NCBI RefSeq assembly: GCF_902825155.1
Contig: NZ_CADEAG010000007.1
Location: 1-64,000, forward strand
DNA: 64,000 nucleotides
From: Bartonella taylorii 8TBB
GTDB taxonomy: Bacteria > Pseudomonadota > Alphaproteobacteria > Rhizobiales > Rhizobiaceae
Direction of reading: 5' to 3'
The position numbers and the translations under genes are program-made. Each line of letters starts with the position of its first letter. The first letter of the stretch is position 1. Shown piece after piece: positions 1,006 through 45,998 of the stretch. The notes under the pieces are model-generated. The model was not told the DNA's origin. It worked only from the letters and a program-made list of their open reading frames with translations, and made no database searches.

Positions 1006-2364
1006 TTATGAATCTGAAGGAGTTGATTGGTTGGAAAGATATTTTTCTAGCCAGTGGATATTATAATTGCCCTCTGCAATATCTTGATTGTTAATGAGAT
1101 CGCGAAAGAGAGGCAATGTGGTTTCTATTCCATCGACAACAAATTCATCTAAAGCACGTCGTAAACGCATCATGCATTCTAAACGAGTACGCCCATGAAC
1201 AATCAGCTTTCCAATCATGCTATCATAATAAGGGGGAATACGGTAACCTGAATAAGCACCTGAATCAACGCGAATTCCTAAACCTCCAGGTGTATGAAAA
1301 TGTGTAATAGTCCCTGGTGACGGCGTAAAGTTAATAGGATCTTCGGCATTGATACGACATTCAATAGCATGGCCAGAGAAGCAGACATCATCTTGAGTAA
1401 CGGAAAGTTTTTCACCTGATGCAATATGAATTTGCTCATGAACTAAGTCTATACCTGTAATCGCTTCTGTTACAGGATGTTCAACTTGTAAACGCGTATT
1501 CATCTCAATGAAGTAGAATTCACCATTTTCATAAAGAAACTCAATGGTACCAGCACCACGATATTCAAGTTGTGCACAAGCATTTGCGACAATATCACCA
1601 ATCTTTTTCCGTTCAGTTTCATTAAGAGCTGGTGACGTGGCTTCTTCCCATATTTTTTGATGACGTCGTTGAAGTGAACAATCACGTTCTCCTAAATGAA
1701 TAGCATTCCCCACTCCATCGCCTATCACTTGAATTTCAATATGACGGGGCTTTTCTAGATATTTTTCGATATAAACTGCATCATCACCGAAAGCTGATGC
1801 TGCCTCTGAACGAGTTGTTTTGAGAGCTATAGCAAACTCTTGTTCAGAATGGACGACTTTCATACCGCGTCCACCACCACCTGCAGAAGCCTTAATAATA
1901 ACTGGATAACCAATTTCGCAAGCTGTGCGTAAAGCTTCTGCTTCTTCAGTGACTGCTCCATCTGAACCAGGGACTACAGGAATTCCAAGTTTTTTAGCGG
2001 TTTTTTTTGCTTCAATTTTATCGCCCATGGTTCGAATATGCGCAGCCGTTGGGCCGATGAATGTAATATCATGGGCTTCGAGAACATCTGCAAATTTTGC
2101 ATTCTCAGAAAGAAAGCCATAGCCTGGATGAACAGCATCAGCCCCTGTGATCTCGCAAGCTGCAATAATTTGATGAATGCTTAAATACGAATCGCGCGCT
2201 GGAGGAGGACCAATACAGACACTTTCGTCAGCAAGACGAACGTGCATTGCATCGGCGTCAGCAGTGGAGTGAACGGCTACAGTTTTTATTCCAAGTTCTC
2301 TGCAGGCTCGCAGAACGCGAAGAGCAATTTCTCCCCGATTAGCAATGAGGATTTTTCGAATCAT
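1006..2364 (-). CDS. accC: Acetyl-CoA carboxylase, biotin carboxylase subunit
   Basis: 452 residues, normal for AccC. It carboxylates the biotin on AccB using ATP and bicarbonate, the first step of malonyl-CoA and fatty-acid synthesis. Visible: N-terminal domain starting [19 protein letters not shown]-grasp glycine-rich loop [11 protein letters not shown] near residue 165, and the active-site segment [14 protein letters not shown] near residues 288-301, followed by the C-terminal biotin-carboxylase domain. It lies 14 bp downstream of accB on the same strand, so the two are almost certainly co-transcribed. The next feature downstream is the tRNA-Thr and phage-like segment. Confidence 0.97.
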
Positions 2365-39920: not shown

Positions 39921-41234
39921 TCAAACTGCTATACCATAAAGATCATAAGCATCCGATTCTTCGATTTTTACGGTAACAAATTCACCTACACGTAACGGTC
40001 GTCGTGATGATATATGCACAATGCCATCTATTTCTGGAGCATCATATTGACTACGGCCTTTAGCGGTTTTTCCTTGACTTTCATCAATCAGAACTTGGAG
40101 TCTTTTTCCAATTTTTTTCTTCAAAAGAAGAGCTGAAATTTGTTGTTGTTTTGCCATAAAGCGATGCCAGCGGCTTTCTTTTACTTCTTCGGCAATATTT
40201 TCTAAACCCAAATCATTGGCAGCAGCACCTTTTACTTCTTCATATTTAAAACAGCCGGCACGTTCAATTTTTGTTTCCTCTAACCATTCGAGAAGTATAT
40301 TAAAATCTTCATTCGTTTCTCCTGGAAACCCGACAATAAATGTTGATCGTAAAGTGAGGTCTGGACAAATTTTTCTCCACTTTTCAATTCTACGATTTGT
40401 TTTTTCCATATGTGCAGGACGCTTCATGTTACGTAAAACCGTTGGTGATGCGTGTTGAAAAGGAATATCCAGATAAGGGAGAATTTTTCTTTCCGCCATA
40501 AGTTCAATAACTTCATCAACATGAGGATAAGGATAGACATAATGCATGCGTATCCAAATACCCATGTTGCCTAACTCGCAACAAAGATCGAAAAATTTGG
40601 TTCTTACTGTGCGATCTTTCCAAGGACTTTCGCGATATTTAATATCAATACCGTAAGCACTTGTATCTTGTGAAATAACCAAAAGTTCTTTTACGCCGGC
40701 TTGGACGAGTTTTTCAGCTTCGCGAAGAACATCATTGATAGGGCGTGAAGTAAGGTTACCACGTAGAGTAGGGATAATGCAAAAACTACATCGATTAGAA
40801 CATCCTTCAGAAATTTTTAAATAAGCATAATGGCGAGGTGTTAAGCGAATACCTTGCGGGGGAACTAAATCAATAAAGGGATCATGAATTGGAGGAATTA
40901 CTGTATGAACAGCTTGTATAACACTTTCATAGGCCTGTGGCCCTGTAATAGCTAATACATTAGGATGTGCTTGACGAATAACATCAGGATCAGCACCAAG
41001 ACACCCAGTTACAATAACCTTCCCATTTTCTTTGAGGGCTTCACCAATATTAGCTAATGATTCATTTCGAGCAGAATCAATAAAACCACAGGTATTCACA
41101 ATGACAAGATCAGCACGTTGATGCTTATGTGAGATTTCATAACCTTCAGATCGTAGTCTAGTAATAATTCGCTCAGAATCTACAAGTGCTTTTGGACATC
41201 CTAGGGAGACAAAACTAATACGAGGTGCTGCCAT
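39921..41234 (-). CDS. rimO: Ribosomal protein S12 methylthiotransferase RimO
   Basis: 437 residues. Radical-SAM methylthiotransferase acting on Asp89 of S12. N-terminal UPF0004 domain with [22 protein letters not shown] and VTGCLGA (three cluster Cys); radical SAM motif [18 protein letters not shown] near residue 140; C-terminal TRAM domain ([33 protein letters not shown]). All six cluster cysteines are present, so it should be functional. Confidence 0.96.
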
Positions 41235-41474: not shown

Positions 41475-42188
41475 TTAATATTTGCGGATAAGTCCGATAA
41501 GTTTACCTTGTATCTGTACACGCTCAGATCCGTATATGCGTGTTTCGTAGTGAGGATTTGCAGCTTCTAATGTAATAGAGGTTCCTTTGCGTCGATAACG
41601 TTTTAAAGTTGCTTCTTCTTTATCAATGAATGCTACAACAATTTCACCTGATATTGCTGTACTTTGACATTTAACAATTATAGTATCTTTATCAAGAATA
41701 CCAGCTTCAATCATAGAATCATCTCTGACTTCTAAAGCGTAGTGCTCGCCTGAATTAATCATATCTTGTGGTAAAGAGAGCGTGTTTGTTTGTTGCAATA
41801 TAGCGGAGGCAGGCACACTTGCAGCAATGCGACCCATAATAGGAATGGTAATATTCTTTTTGTTTTCTATCTTAAAGTTATCAAGATCATCAAAATTTTT
41901 TGATATTTCTCTTTTGTTCTTCTCTATCTTACTGGGAGAAATTTTACGCGCTAGAGAAAGATTAAATGTTATTTTCTCGGGGAGTCGAATTACCTCTACT
42001 GCACGGGCACGATTTGGCAAACGGCGTATAAAACCTCTTTGTTCTAAGGCTACCATGAGCCTATGAATACCAGACTTTGAAGAAAGCTCTAATGCAATTT
42101 TCATTTCATCAAAGGAGGGAGGAATGCCTGTTTCTTTCATATGATTATGAATAAATAAGAGTAGCTCATATTGTTTACATGTCAGCAT
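41475..42188 (-). CDS. lexA: LexA repressor with altered cleavage site
   Basis: 237 residues. N-terminal winged HTH ([45 protein letters not shown]), a long polar linker, and an S24-type autoprotease domain with catalytic Ser158 (DDSMIEAG) and Lys196 (EEATLKR). The scissile pair, normally Ala-Gly in MGRIAAG, reads Ala123-Ser124 ([13 protein letters not shown]), and the residue before the catalytic DSM is Asp instead of Gly. I find no GTTC-N7-GTTC type SOS box in the 110 bp before the gene. Likely still the SOS repressor, but cleavage may be slower; alternatively a diverged or phage-derived LexA-like repressor. Confidence 0.9.
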
Positions 42189-43049
42189 TCAATATTCCAA
42201 TCAAAAGAATCAAAAGCAAGATAAATAGAAAATAAAATATATATATCTATAAATATTTTAATTTTTTTGATATAAGTTTATAAGAAATTATTTGTTTTTA
42301 GTTTATAATTGATATTAATAAACTAATATTTGTTTATTATTATCGTATATATAAAATAATATTTTTGAATATATTTTACTCATTTTAATTGAGATGAGCT
42401 CTCTTAAGTTAAATTATGCAATCCATTTTGAAAAAAATTATCCATCTCTTCTTAAAAGAGATTTGCGTGCCCGGATCATTCCACATATTATTCATGCTCT
42501 TTATTTTCAGTAATTTATCTATATCTCAAATATTGAGCGTGTTTTTTATTGTTATTTTAATTTAGATAAACTTCCGATTTATATTTATCTTATTTTTTTT
42601 ATAAAAACGAATTTCTTCGTTATATCTCCATTGTGTATTACTAAAATTGCACTCATATCTGAAAATTGGAAAAAAATACTTAAAGATATAAAAATAGATA
42701 ATTATACTTTTAGGAAAATAATATAATATCTATAACTTTCGATAACTATATTTCTTTTTTGTTTTATCCATTAAACTTAACAACAAAACACACAGCTGCT
42801 TTGTTTCTTATTTTCTTTGGTTGTTTATCAACACATTTTACCGTTTGTACAAATTTTCTGCTTTTCCCATAACTTTGAAATATTCACTCTTTTATGCTTC
42901 AGAAGCTGTGATGCCTTTTATGTTGAAATTATCCCTTTTATTCCAATTTAAAACAGGGGAAAAATTGTATACATTAGTAATGGAAAAAACAGAAAAGACA
43001 GAAAATTATTGATAACTAAACTGAATAATAATATTTTTTTCGAAAGGTG
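42189..43049. other. AT-rich 0.86-kb region between lexA and tRNA-Lys
   Basis: No intact gene. Around 42420-42520 the plus strand, read with a frame switch and a stop, gives NYPSLLKRDLRARIIPHIIHAL, which has protein-like composition and may be the tail of a decayed gene, but I cannot identify a family. The remainder is extremely AT-rich with homopolymer runs. No RNA gene seen before the tRNA-Lys promoter. Confidence 0.4.
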
Positions 43050-43078
43050 TTGACCAAATGAAAAGTCAACCGTATGTT
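43050..43078 (+). promoter_or_regulatory. Sigma-70-type promoter of tRNA-Lys
   Basis: TTGACC (43050-43055), a 17-bp spacer and TATGTT (43073-43078), placing the predicted transcription start near 43085, about 30 bp before the mature tRNA. The hexamer match and the exact spacing are good. Confidence 0.7.
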
Positions 43079-43113
43079 CCACTCACTTTCTGCAAGCGAA
43101 ATGACTTGTGTGG

Positions 43114-43189
43114 GAGCGCGTAGCTCAGCTGGTAGAGCAACTGACTTTTAATCAGTAGGTCCAGGGTTCGAATCCCTGCGCGCTCACCA
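43114..43189 (+). tRNA. tRNA-Lys (anticodon TTT)
   Basis: A complete 76-nt tRNA with CCA encoded: acceptor GAGCGCG/CGCGCTC, D arm AGCTCAGCTGGTAGAGCA, anticodon stem ACTGA/TCAGT with loop CTTTTAA (anticodon TTT), T arm CAGGGTTCGAATCCCTG. Its 3' end is followed after 60 bp by a decayed integrase gene pointing toward it, so it is the presumed attachment site of the phage relic to its right. Confidence 0.97.
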
Positions 43190-43249
43190 ATTATCAGTAA
43201 AATCAATAGTTTATATAAAAGTTCGGCAATTTTTGTTCCTTTGATTCTG

Positions 43250-43994
43250 TTAGCTTATTTTTCTGTATGCCCGAACCTTTTTGAAGTTTTTTATTGATTC
43301 TATTGCTAGGCATTTTCTATCGGTTGTTTTAGTATAAAGTGGTGTCATGCTGTCTTCTGTCCAGCCAAAAAATGCTTTCAGTTGTGATTACTGTATCTCC
43401 TGCGTTTACTGCACGTGTTGCTGCTAACTTTCACAATCCATGTACTGATTTTTATTTTAGCTGTATTACATGCTTCGCGAAACGTGGTACCAAAGCATTC
43501 TTTAACAAGCTTATTTTCGCTTTTGCCACAAATGAATGTTTCATTACCAATGGGACTCATTTCAAGTGTTGTGGCTAGTTCCTGTAAAATTGGAAGAAAA
43601 ACAATTGACTTTTTTCTGTTTTGAGATGGATGATGTTATCTTCAGCGTCTTTCCAACTAATGCGAACGGCGTCACCACGGCACAAGCCAGTATAAAAAAG
43701 GACGTCAATCCAAACACGCTCGTGCCTGCCTAGCTGCCAACAACGGTAGTATTGGTCGATATCTGCATCTGACCAAGGTATAAAGCCTTCTGCGTTAAAG
43801 GATTTAGGCGTTTTAATATTAAGGGCAGAATTTTTGTTTAAAAGCGCACTATCAACCGCTTAATTAAAAGAACTATTTAAAGCTGTTAAGAAGTGTCTTG
43901 CTGTTGTGGGTGTTGCACGTCTTCTTTCTATGATATCAAAAATATGTTGTTTTTCATGCAATGTTTCCGATATTTGTGGTATTTGTACTGTCAT
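43250..43994 (-). pseudogene. Tyrosine-recombinase phage integrase, broken
   Basis: Minus-strand fragments in order: core-binding part RRRATPTTARHFLTALNSSFN, a stop, then FIPWSDADIDQYYRCWQLG, RVWIDVLFYTGLCRGDAVRI with the first catalytic Arg context (consensus TGLRRGDAV, here Cys for the first Arg), SQLIVFLPILQELA, FGTTFREACNTA, VHGL followed by a stop where the HxxR Arg should be and KLAATRAVNAG, and finally FFGWTEDSMTPLYTKTTDRK with the nucleophile Tyr. At least two in-frame stops and frameshifts; N-terminal domain missing. Non-functional. The stop codon lies 60 bp from the tRNA-Lys 3' end. Confidence 0.85.
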
Positions 43995-44420
43995 GTTGGT
44001 ATCATTTTATTTTTAAAATATTTTTGTAGTTTGATAAATCGTTTGTATCTCATGCTCTTCTTATGCGCTGAAAAAAGATTGTAGTGATTGTAGATATATA
44101 GATATCATGAGTGCTATATAGCATTTTTGGTGTCTTTTCCCTCTTTATTAGTTATTTGTTGTATAATTGATTCGTTTAGGTGATACAATTTTGAGTTGTT
44201 GATTATAAAAACACCAGATTTAGGTAAGAAAGTAAAAAAACATACAATATCGTGATTTTTGTTGACAGGATGTGAGAAACAGAATTTTACGTCGCTGCTG
44301 TACCAGCTGGGTTGTGTCTAAAATTACAGTAAAGGTATAACCTCTCTTATAAGTTTATATGATTGTCCTGATTCCTGTGTTTGCGGTTTTTTATTGTCTT
44401 GTTCACAAAAAGAAACACAC
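43995..44420. other. Non-coding part of the phage relic
   Basis: 426 bp between the integrase and packaging-gene remnants. No recognisable gene piece, tRNA or repeat; presumably the deletion junction that removed most of the phage lies here. Confidence 0.4.
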
Positions 44421-44738
44421 ATGAAAACCATTGAAAAAACTGCAAAAAGAATGCCTCCAAAGATAGGTCAAGGGCGGAAAAAAGCGTACCAAATAAAACG
44501 ACACGTATTTTGAAAGAAGTGGTGCTTAAAGCAGCAGAACACGCTGGTAAAGAAATATGGTGATGACGGTTTGATCTTTTACCTCGAAAAATAAGCACTC
44601 AAATGTCCCGCTGATTACCTGTCATTGTTGGGGAAGATTTTGCCTCTTCAAGTGATAGGCGCGGATGGCGAAGCTATTAAGATGATAACGCGTGTGGAAA
44701 TTGTAGCCCCTGATTTTGAGAGGAATACTTTAGAGTAA
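44421..44738 (+). pseudogene. Small phage protein upstream of terminase, broken
   Basis: Starting MKTIEKTAKRMPPKIGQGRKK, then with a frame change VPNKTTRILKEVVLKAAEHAGKE, then another change YGDDGLIFYLEK, a stop, and ALKCPADYLSLLGKILPLQV...VEIVAPDFERNTLE. This is the type of small protein (GRPKG-PNKTT N-terminus) that precedes the large terminase in alphaproteobacterial prophages, possibly a small-terminase or packaging accessory; identification is by pattern memory. At least two frameshifts and one internal stop. Confidence 0.65.
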
Positions 44739-44739
44739 G

Positions 44740-45593
44740 ATGGCTGTAAGGCAAGTTATATTAGTTCCAAAGCTTATACCGATATTTACAGGCAGTGCGG
44801 CGGTACATGCGGATTGAGGAGAGAGAGGATCTGGAAAAACAAGATCATTTGCGTCTTGATGGCGGCTTTGAAAGGCTATCAGTTTGGCATGGAAGACATT
44901 TCAAGGACCATTTTTGTGCACAGCGGTTCCAAAATTCGCTAGCTGAAAGTTCTCTGGAAGAGATCAAACGCACATTGAAGTGCATGACTTTTTAAATGAC
45001 TATTGTAAGGTTGGGGAGTCGTCGATTAAGATTGATGCTTGTATCGCTTTTCAGTTTTCTGAACTAGACCGCAATATTGTAAGTATCAAGTCTATGGAGC
45101 GACTTTTGCTTTTTTTTGGGGTTGATGGAAGCAGAGCCTGTTACAGAGACGGCTTGGCAAACGCTTATACCGACTTTACGTGAAGAGGGGGAGGGATGGA
45201 GAGCAGAGTTGTGGGTCACATGGAAACCGTTACGTGAGGATGTCCCCGTTGAGAGGCGGTTTCGTTTTTCCAACAATGAGGCAATTAAGTGTGTTGAGAT
45301 CAACTAGTCAGATAATTCGAAATTTCCAAAGATCTCGAATGAAGCGCGGTTGGATGATCTTAACAATCGTCCAGAGAACTACAAACATATTTGGGAAGGG
45401 GATTATCTGAAAGCCGTTCAGAGTGCCTATTATCAAAAGGAAATGTTGGCAGTTGAGTAGGAGGGACGAATAGGGCGTGGTTGCTCGTGACCCCTTGATA
45501 CAAATGCGTGCTTTTTGGGACATTGGGGGAACAGGCAGCAAGGCAGATGCAACAGCGATATGTATTGCAATACACAAAGTGGACAATGCTTAG
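44740..45593 (+). pseudogene. Phage terminase large subunit, broken and truncated
   Basis: Begins MAVRQVILVPKLIPIFTG one base after the preceding remnant. A frame change leads to GERGSGKTRSFA, an intact-looking Walker A at 44818-44841, then MAALKGYQFGMEDISRTIFVH, SLEEIKRTL, a piece reading VDGSRACYRDG in the wrong frame but matching VDEAEPVTETAWQTLIPTLREEG in another, ELWVTWKPLREDVPVERRFRFSNNEAIKCVEIN, and a last piece HIWEGDYLKAVQSAYYQKEMLAVE. The C-terminal nuclease domain is mostly gone. Several frameshifts and stops make it inactive. Confidence 0.85.
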
Positions 45594-45998
45594 ACATTAC
45601 TAAAGATGATATTTCAAACTTTCAAGAAAATGGTCCGTAATTATTGGATTGTTCTATTAATTTACGTTTTTTTTGCATTAATTAGAGTGATTTACTACTC
45701 GTTATACAGAATCATCATACTTATTCACAGTTTATATTATGAAATCATATTTTTTATGAAGATATTGATTTCTTTATTCTTTAATTCATCCATAACGTCT
45801 ATGAGATTGCATTTATTTCTTGCGAAAAATCATAAAAAGATTAATAATATATTAATTTCTTGATAAAAGGTACTTTTTTGGGCTATTATAGCTGTGCGTG
45901 GGGAATTATCCGAAAATGTGAATTTCTCTGTCGCATATAGAAGGTGCGATGTGATTTTTTTGCAGTAAATATTTAATTAAAAATAAGCGGGATGATAA
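45594..45998. other. AT-rich spacer right of the phage relic
   Basis: 405 bp. A plus-strand open frame at 45606-45863 encodes a string of Ile/Leu/Phe/Tyr with no known pattern and is probably an artefact of AT-richness. The rlpA promoter should be here. Confidence 0.35.

Follow-up and report, generated by a model that had tools for sequence, protein, structure and literature searches.

Outside a basal clade of the genus Bartonella, LexA is, with fair probability, a non-SOS and probably poorly cleavable regulator of run-off replication (ROR), as judged from genome comparison. The protein would have left the SOS response and been retained as a putative DNA-binding regulator of this phage-derived locus, which partners the Bartonella gene transfer agent (BaGTA). 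The window, i.e., the whole stretch of DNA analyzed, comprises 64,000 nt of Bartonella taylorii 8TBB (GCF_902825155.1, contig NZ_CADEAG010000007.1, positions 1-64,000, forward strand); its own genome is labelled G000. For the genus comparison, 71 Bartonella genomes were searched with the LexA protein of the window.

The lexA gene of B. taylorii 8TBB

The lexA gene (41475..42188, minus strand) encodes a protein of 237 aa with an altered cleavage site. In the profile search its product reached 164.1 bits with TIGR00498 (cut-off 110.95), and both the LexA DNA-binding domain (PF01726) and the S24 domain (PF00717) were found above their cut-offs. The DNA-binding domain spans residues 1-66 (41991..42188, minus strand). 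Its residues 37-42, SKSGIH, are the same in all 14 basal Bartonella and all 25 aligned LexA proteins of other genera.

Upstream of lexA lies a tRNA-Lys(TTT) gene (43114..43189, plus strand) and downstream a gene which we take to be rimO (39921..41234, minus strand). Both were used as synteny anchors and the latter also as a control for selection. The order tRNA-Lys - lexA - rimO supports orthology by neighbourhood; a tRNA-Lys gene stands beside lexA at locus L080 as well. Apart from this tRNA, the region of about 3.8 kb upstream of lexA (42189-45998) contains no open reading frame of at least 150 aa.

The pair Ala123-Ser124 (41817..41822, minus strand), reported by the first-pass annotation in place of the normal Ala-Gly, was borne out by the reading frame and by the alignment, as were the positions of the catalytic Ser158 and Lys196 (41601..41603, minus strand), so that the Ser-Lys dyad is complete. 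The nucleophile is part of Asp156-Asp157-Ser158 (41715..41723, minus strand), where Gly-Asp-Ser is normal; this change, which had been described as DDSM instead of GDSM with the altered residue next to the nucleophile, is real and located at position -2. For self-cleaving proteins of the LexA/UmuD/CI type, Ala-Gly or Cys-Gly is called conserved in two papers (PMC10020695, PMC8565304), and the LexA of the window departs from both with Ala-Ser.

A second S24-type protein, perhaps a prophage repressor, was observed at G000:C17:2069-2383 (L002), in an open frame of 225 aa.

Distribution of lexA and of its cleavage site in Bartonella

An alignment of LexA from many Bartonella and their relatives, as the first-pass annotation had proposed, was built from 60 intact Bartonella proteins and 25 from other genera; the latter are the best-matching fetched loci from a sample of the family, with matches in 288 of 297 genomes. 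Three broken lexA genes were excluded from the residue counts. Glycine was confirmed as the usual residue after the scissile bond: A-G, GDS, Lys196 and Arg43 were found in 25/25 rows of other genera and in 14/14 rows of the basal clade, which comprises 14 of the 71 genomes and presumably represents the insect-gut bartonellas.

The remaining 57 genomes carry an intact lexA in 46 cases and a broken one in three (G011, G031 and G039, each in two stretches with stops), while the gene is absent from eight (G002, G007, G008, G010, G037, G042, G043 and G047, with a weak partial match only in G007). The LexA DNA-binding profile bore this out, matching 0/8 of these genomes compared to 6/6 lexA-bearing ones. 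At four of the eight loci (L212-L215) tRNA-Lys and rimO are about 280-455 bp apart, with lexA missing between them. In the other four genomes (G002, G007, G008 and G047) the search for rimO yielded no close match, the best relatives having at most 32% identity; one deletion perhaps took both rimO and lexA there. With three broken and eight absent copies, lexA is therefore dispensable.

Among the 46 intact non-basal LexA proteins, 37 do not carry A-G, which exceeds what chance would give. The scissile bond was found to be A-S in 29, A-G in nine, T-G in four, A-A in two, and A-N and S-G in one each. Residues 156-158 read DDS in 27, DNS in 13 and GDS in six. Ser158 is retained in 46/46 and Lys196 in 45/46, the exception being an Arg in L071, whose bond is still A-G. 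At residue 43, which adjoins the SKSGIH motif, Lys replaces Arg in 33/46. The change had been seen as a peculiarity of its own lineage, which does not hold given 29 of 46 relatives with A-S. A sequencing error or single-genome oddity is ruled out, since close relatives carry the same change. The first-pass annotation had further considered the anomaly to be without functional meaning if all close relatives shared Ser and cleaved at normal rates; the 29 of 46 A-S proteins bear on the sharing part alone, which they support.

A-G was found in none of the 34 rows of the crown group, which contains the LexA of the window. On the LexA tree, judged by eye, the loss of Gly at -2 is placed below the scissile-bond change for this group. 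The order is not strict, because S-G occurs together with GDS in L080, and L083 carries DDS although its sisters have GDS.

Loss of SOS operators and Y-family polymerases

LexA of the Alphaproteobacteria, including the Rhizobiaceae, belongs to the operator class of GTTC/GAAC direct repeats. The missing operator noted earlier for the window was corroborated: neither an exact GTTC-N7-GTTC nor an exact GAAC-N7-GAAC was found within 300 bp upstream of lexA. Exact GAAC-N7-GAAC sites are located upstream of lexA in 14/14 basal and 25/25 other-genus loci and in 1/46 of the remaining loci; for two lexA loci the upstream sequence is short (about 230 bp in L005 and about 143 bp in L028). Decay in place could be followed in the alignment, with both half-sites present in L078, one in L075 and L081, and altered ones in L080 and L074. 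An operator overlooked through misalignment is therefore ruled out, as the decaying operator is traceable in place through the relatives. In the window the ancestral operator region (42189..42330, minus strand) has decayed, and no recognizable remnant was seen in the same upstream alignment. By eye, no conserved replacement motif was seen at the former operator.

The search for SOS boxes before recA, uvrA and lexA, likewise suggested by the first-pass annotation, revealed no exact box at any of the three in G000. Across the genus, recA is present in 71/71 genomes, with an exact upstream box in 12/14 basal vs. 0/57 other genomes; the two basal genomes without it have only 152 and 88 bp of upstream sequence before the contig ends. 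The uvrA box was found in 4/4 basal vs. 0/26 other genomes tested. Y-family polymerases (PF00817) are encoded in 14/71 genomes, which are exactly the basal clade, and in 0/57 others including G000. G000 is thus without the lexA, recA and uvrA operators and the Y-family polymerases that would mark an SOS master regulator. At the level of sequence, LexA appears disconnected from SOS outside the basal clade, where the recA, uvrA and lexA operators and the Y-family polymerases have been lost. Of the 'weakened or altered SOS induction' claimed earlier, the altered wiring is strongly supported and extended by the loss of these operators and polymerases; weakened cleavage is something that we infer.

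In many respects the LexA of the window resembles that of the Alphaproteobacteria and Rhizobiaceae: it is an ortholog with both domains, the tRNA-Lys and rimO neighbours, the Ser-Lys dyad and SKSGIH beside residue 43. It differs in its A-S bond and in the missing operators of lexA itself, recA and uvrA, as well as the missing Y-family polymerase.

No genome-wide excess of GAACAN6GAAC over a reversed-pattern control was found in the sum of 12 non-basal genomes (184 vs. 192), the single genomes ranging from 17 vs. 28 (G027) to 18 vs. 9 (G015). Of three basal genomes, two showed an excess (36 vs. 18 and 29 vs. 15) and one none (29 vs. 29). In G000, GAACN7GAAC is rarer than the control pattern (32 vs. 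61), and the 64-kb window contains 35 boxes with at most one mismatch, compared to 37.6 expected.

Selection on LexA

In the codon model, omega of the crown group was determined to be 0.07 for residues 1-66, 0.23 for the linker, 0.12 for residues 113-237 and 0.13 overall. The corresponding values are 0.05, 0.19, 0.08 and 0.11 for the intermediate group and 0.009, 0.10, 0.010 and 0.035 for the basal clade, where saturation of synonymous sites may depress omega. For crown LexA, omega = 1 was rejected with 2dlnL values of 408, 116 and 590 (residues 1-66, linker and 113-237, respectively); all runs used fast searches, and kappa was fixed at 4.5 in the omega = 1 model.

The RimO control gave 0.059 (crown), 0.058 (mid) and 0.038 (basal). 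With a threshold of at least 97% gene coverage, and with many loci breaking off within rimO, it draws on 26 of the 60 rows, of which 5 are crown, 9 mid and 12 basal. The shift between crown and basal clade is larger for LexA (0.13 vs. 0.035) than for RimO (0.059 vs. 0.038). From these values and the rejection of omega = 1, LexA is relaxed yet far from neutral, and the intact protein is, by this codon-level measure, under purifying selection.

A conserved LexA-type box in the ROR locus

All 32 exact GAAC-N7-GAAC sites of G000 were examined with a reading-frame threshold of 95 aa. Thirty are located inside reading frames and two are intergenic. One of the latter lies between genes that we assume to encode a CinA-like protein and an amidase. 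The other (G000:C1:61603-61617) was found again in relatives and is located in ROR. Recurrence of boxes was judged among the matches listed, i.e., in part of the genomes. The recurrent box GAACAGAATTGGAAC near ROR is located within the exonuclease gene and was set aside; GAACAGGCAAAGAAC is found within a frame presumed to be rpsM, and GAACACGCAAAGAAC within a presumably fusA-like frame.

The module around the ROR box consists of genes for a 105-aa HTH protein, a 129-aa protein and a YqaJ exonuclease and of a divergent gene for a DUF1376/primosomal protein. The 105-aa HTH gene adjoins the box; its product matches a PHROG repressor family (E 4e-6), and the Pfam HTH match is under its cut-off. 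A 361-base query from the module matched 57/57 non-basal and 0/14 basal genomes. In G006, reading-frame coordinates equal those of the B. australis ROR genes (PMC3610622, Table 2), at both ends for BAnh111090 and at 1395225 for BAnh111070. BAnh111110 of the same table agrees with a G006 frame at its start (1397835), its end lying outside the compared stretch. The box is thus enclosed by the ROR segment associated with BaGTA, as described in PMC3610622, PMC2697382 and PMC6899734. None of the three papers uses the words LexA or SOS in its main text. A literature search of titles and abstract openings yielded no paper on LexA in Bartonella; a 2017 paper on BaGTA regulation is outside this coverage and may hold relevant data.

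Over the 49 genomes with an intact or broken lexA, the box ranks first in conservation among 239 noncoding 15-mers and sixth among all 406, the five windows above it being within the opening codons of the 129-aa gene. Mean conservation in these genomes is 0.981 for the box, compared to 0.74 (22 bp to its left) and 0.61 (60 bp to its right). Without G015, where the box is missing, it ranks 1/406 over the remaining 48 genomes. Over all 57 non-basal genomes it ranks 9/239 (noncoding) and 29/406 (overall), and in the eight genomes without lexA it ranks 129/239 with a mean of 0.67 (window genome as reference).

The exact box was identified in 45/46 genomes with intact, 3/3 with broken and 0/8 with absent lexA. 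Of the 45 boxes accompanying an intact lexA, 44 are at the aligned position; in G048 the box at that position is broken and an exact one is found 21 bp off. One-mismatch versions occupy the position in the lexA-absent genomes G002 and G047. The best recA tree implies three losses of lexA, all of them in lineages without the box. G015, with intact lexA and no box, is the sister of one of these groups. The ROR box thus represents a conserved operator candidate that tracks lexA, within the limits of three lexA losses and the one exception G015. As the co-loss of lexA and box provides only two to three independent pairs, it cannot be called significant.

In five genomes (G017, at locus L321, and G020, G025, G028 and G056) three exact boxes overlap at ROR in steps of 11 bp; a repeat search at ROR found nothing further. 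A promoter-like TTGACA/TATAAG element is retained in the same region in 57/57 genomes. The seven spacer bases of the box are also conserved (0.88-1.00), which is beyond what LexA should need, and so another factor may share the box.

Proposed role of LexA and alternative explanations

It is proposed that LexA binds the ROR box and would thereby repress a promoter there. With ROR alone left under LexA, RecA-dependent cleavage would no longer be useful, and the scissile site could have drifted in several ways (A-S, A-N, A-A, T-G, S-G, and Lys to Arg). Ser at P1' is expected to weaken LexA cleavage, and this drift would uncouple ROR from DNA damage.

It is unlikely that LexA is only a slowly decaying relic, in which, after the loss of SOS genes and operators, no selection for cleavage or regulation is left. 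The three broken and eight absent copies among 57 genomes, the variable scissile bond and an omega above that of the basal clade are what such decay would produce. An omega of 0.07-0.12 in both domains with rejection of omega = 1, an intact frame in 46/57 genomes, and a LexA-type box that tops noncoding conservation at ROR where lexA is present and is missing where lexA is missing argue against it. Quite unlikely, too, is a rewired SOS response, in which LexA recognizes a changed operator and still runs the damage response, cleaving at Ala-Ser, perhaps more slowly. The retained Ser158 (46/46) and Lys196 (45/46) and the persisting A-G bond (9/46) agree with this, as does Lys instead of Arg at residue 43 in 33/46, adjoining the conserved SKSGIH. 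However, by eye no conserved motif has taken the place of the former lexA operator, no exact GAAC-N7-GAAC lies upstream of recA, the Y-family polymerases that LexA could control are gone, and P1, P1' and Lys196 have changed in several ways.

The ROR box could also serve the adjoining phage-type HTH regulator or another host factor, its likeness to the LexA operator and its co-occurrence with lexA being coincidental. The neighbouring 105-aa gene of a PHROG repressor family, the conserved spacer and the few independent lexA losses are in line with this. However, in 6/8 lexA-absent genomes (those displayed), where the box has decayed, the HTH gene aligns at its 3' end, and the exact operator spacing and the sets of three exact, overlapping boxes (11-bp steps) in five genomes are better suited to LexA, which renders the explanation improbable.

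Several observations count against LexA as a regulator of ROR, namely G015 and G048, the spacer conservation, the few losses, the dispensable lexA, the relaxed omega, the A-G bond in 9/46 and the missing box excess. A wider reading is put forward tentatively: in the radiation of mammal-infecting bacteria, LexA without SOS control and normal self-cleavage may now be an operator-bound regulator devoted to ROR, a domesticated phage origin which amplifies and exports host-adaptation genes via the gene transfer agent, so that gene exchange would be independent of damage.

Damage-independent gene exchange agrees with reports that the system is active in those growing cells which are the fittest. In a 2019 review (PMC6899734), ROR is described as a phage-derived run-off origin coupled to BaGTA, and disruption of the origin or of some ROR genes abrogates transfer. 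According to the same review, healthy growing cells produce BaGTA, and ppGpp controls it by a 'yet elusive mechanism'; production in such cells fits a system uncoupled from damage. A longer, more moderate production in stationary phase is also described (PMC11841831), which fits less well.

As a functional parallel by analogy, RogA of Caulobacter may be considered, a LexA-like repressor of gene-transfer-agent activators without key catalytic residues (PMC9632790). Both are S24-type repressors with impaired cleavage residues and a link to a gene transfer agent. The Bartonella protein differs in being the orthologous LexA itself, with the dyad mostly retained and ROR/BaGTA as its proposed target. 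The P1' glycine is also changed in lexA3 (Gly85Asp), a non-cleavable LexA, of which the equivalent G91D was made in Listeria (PMC6872733). Compared by sequence alone, the Bartonella change differs from lexA3 in being natural, clade-wide and to Ser.

The ROR box, as a conserved LexA-type operator, offers a cheap direct test of one BaGTA regulator. If the proposed role is true, a widespread stress regulator has been retained without its regulon and its defining reaction for one phage-derived target, an emergency repair switch has turned into a gene-transfer controller, and the persistence of LexA in genomes without SOS operators is explained.

A small reverse-strand reading frame in ROR

A reverse-strand reading frame (MSDLELI..., about 46-49 aa) that has a good ribosome-binding site was observed in ROR near G000:C1:61368-61727. 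It was found in 56/57 genomes (first 20 codons open). In L356 it extends over 1554-1694 (plus strand) and shares sequence with the 3'-terminal part of the HTH gene (1615-1932). For codons 2-20, pN/pS is lower in frame (0.44) than in the two alternative frames (0.63 and 1.04). The ROR box is flanked by the 129-aa gene on the side opposite this frame. Of the 29 genomes measured, 24 have the box starting 50-53 bp upstream of the small frame's start codon, and the others have it farther upstream.
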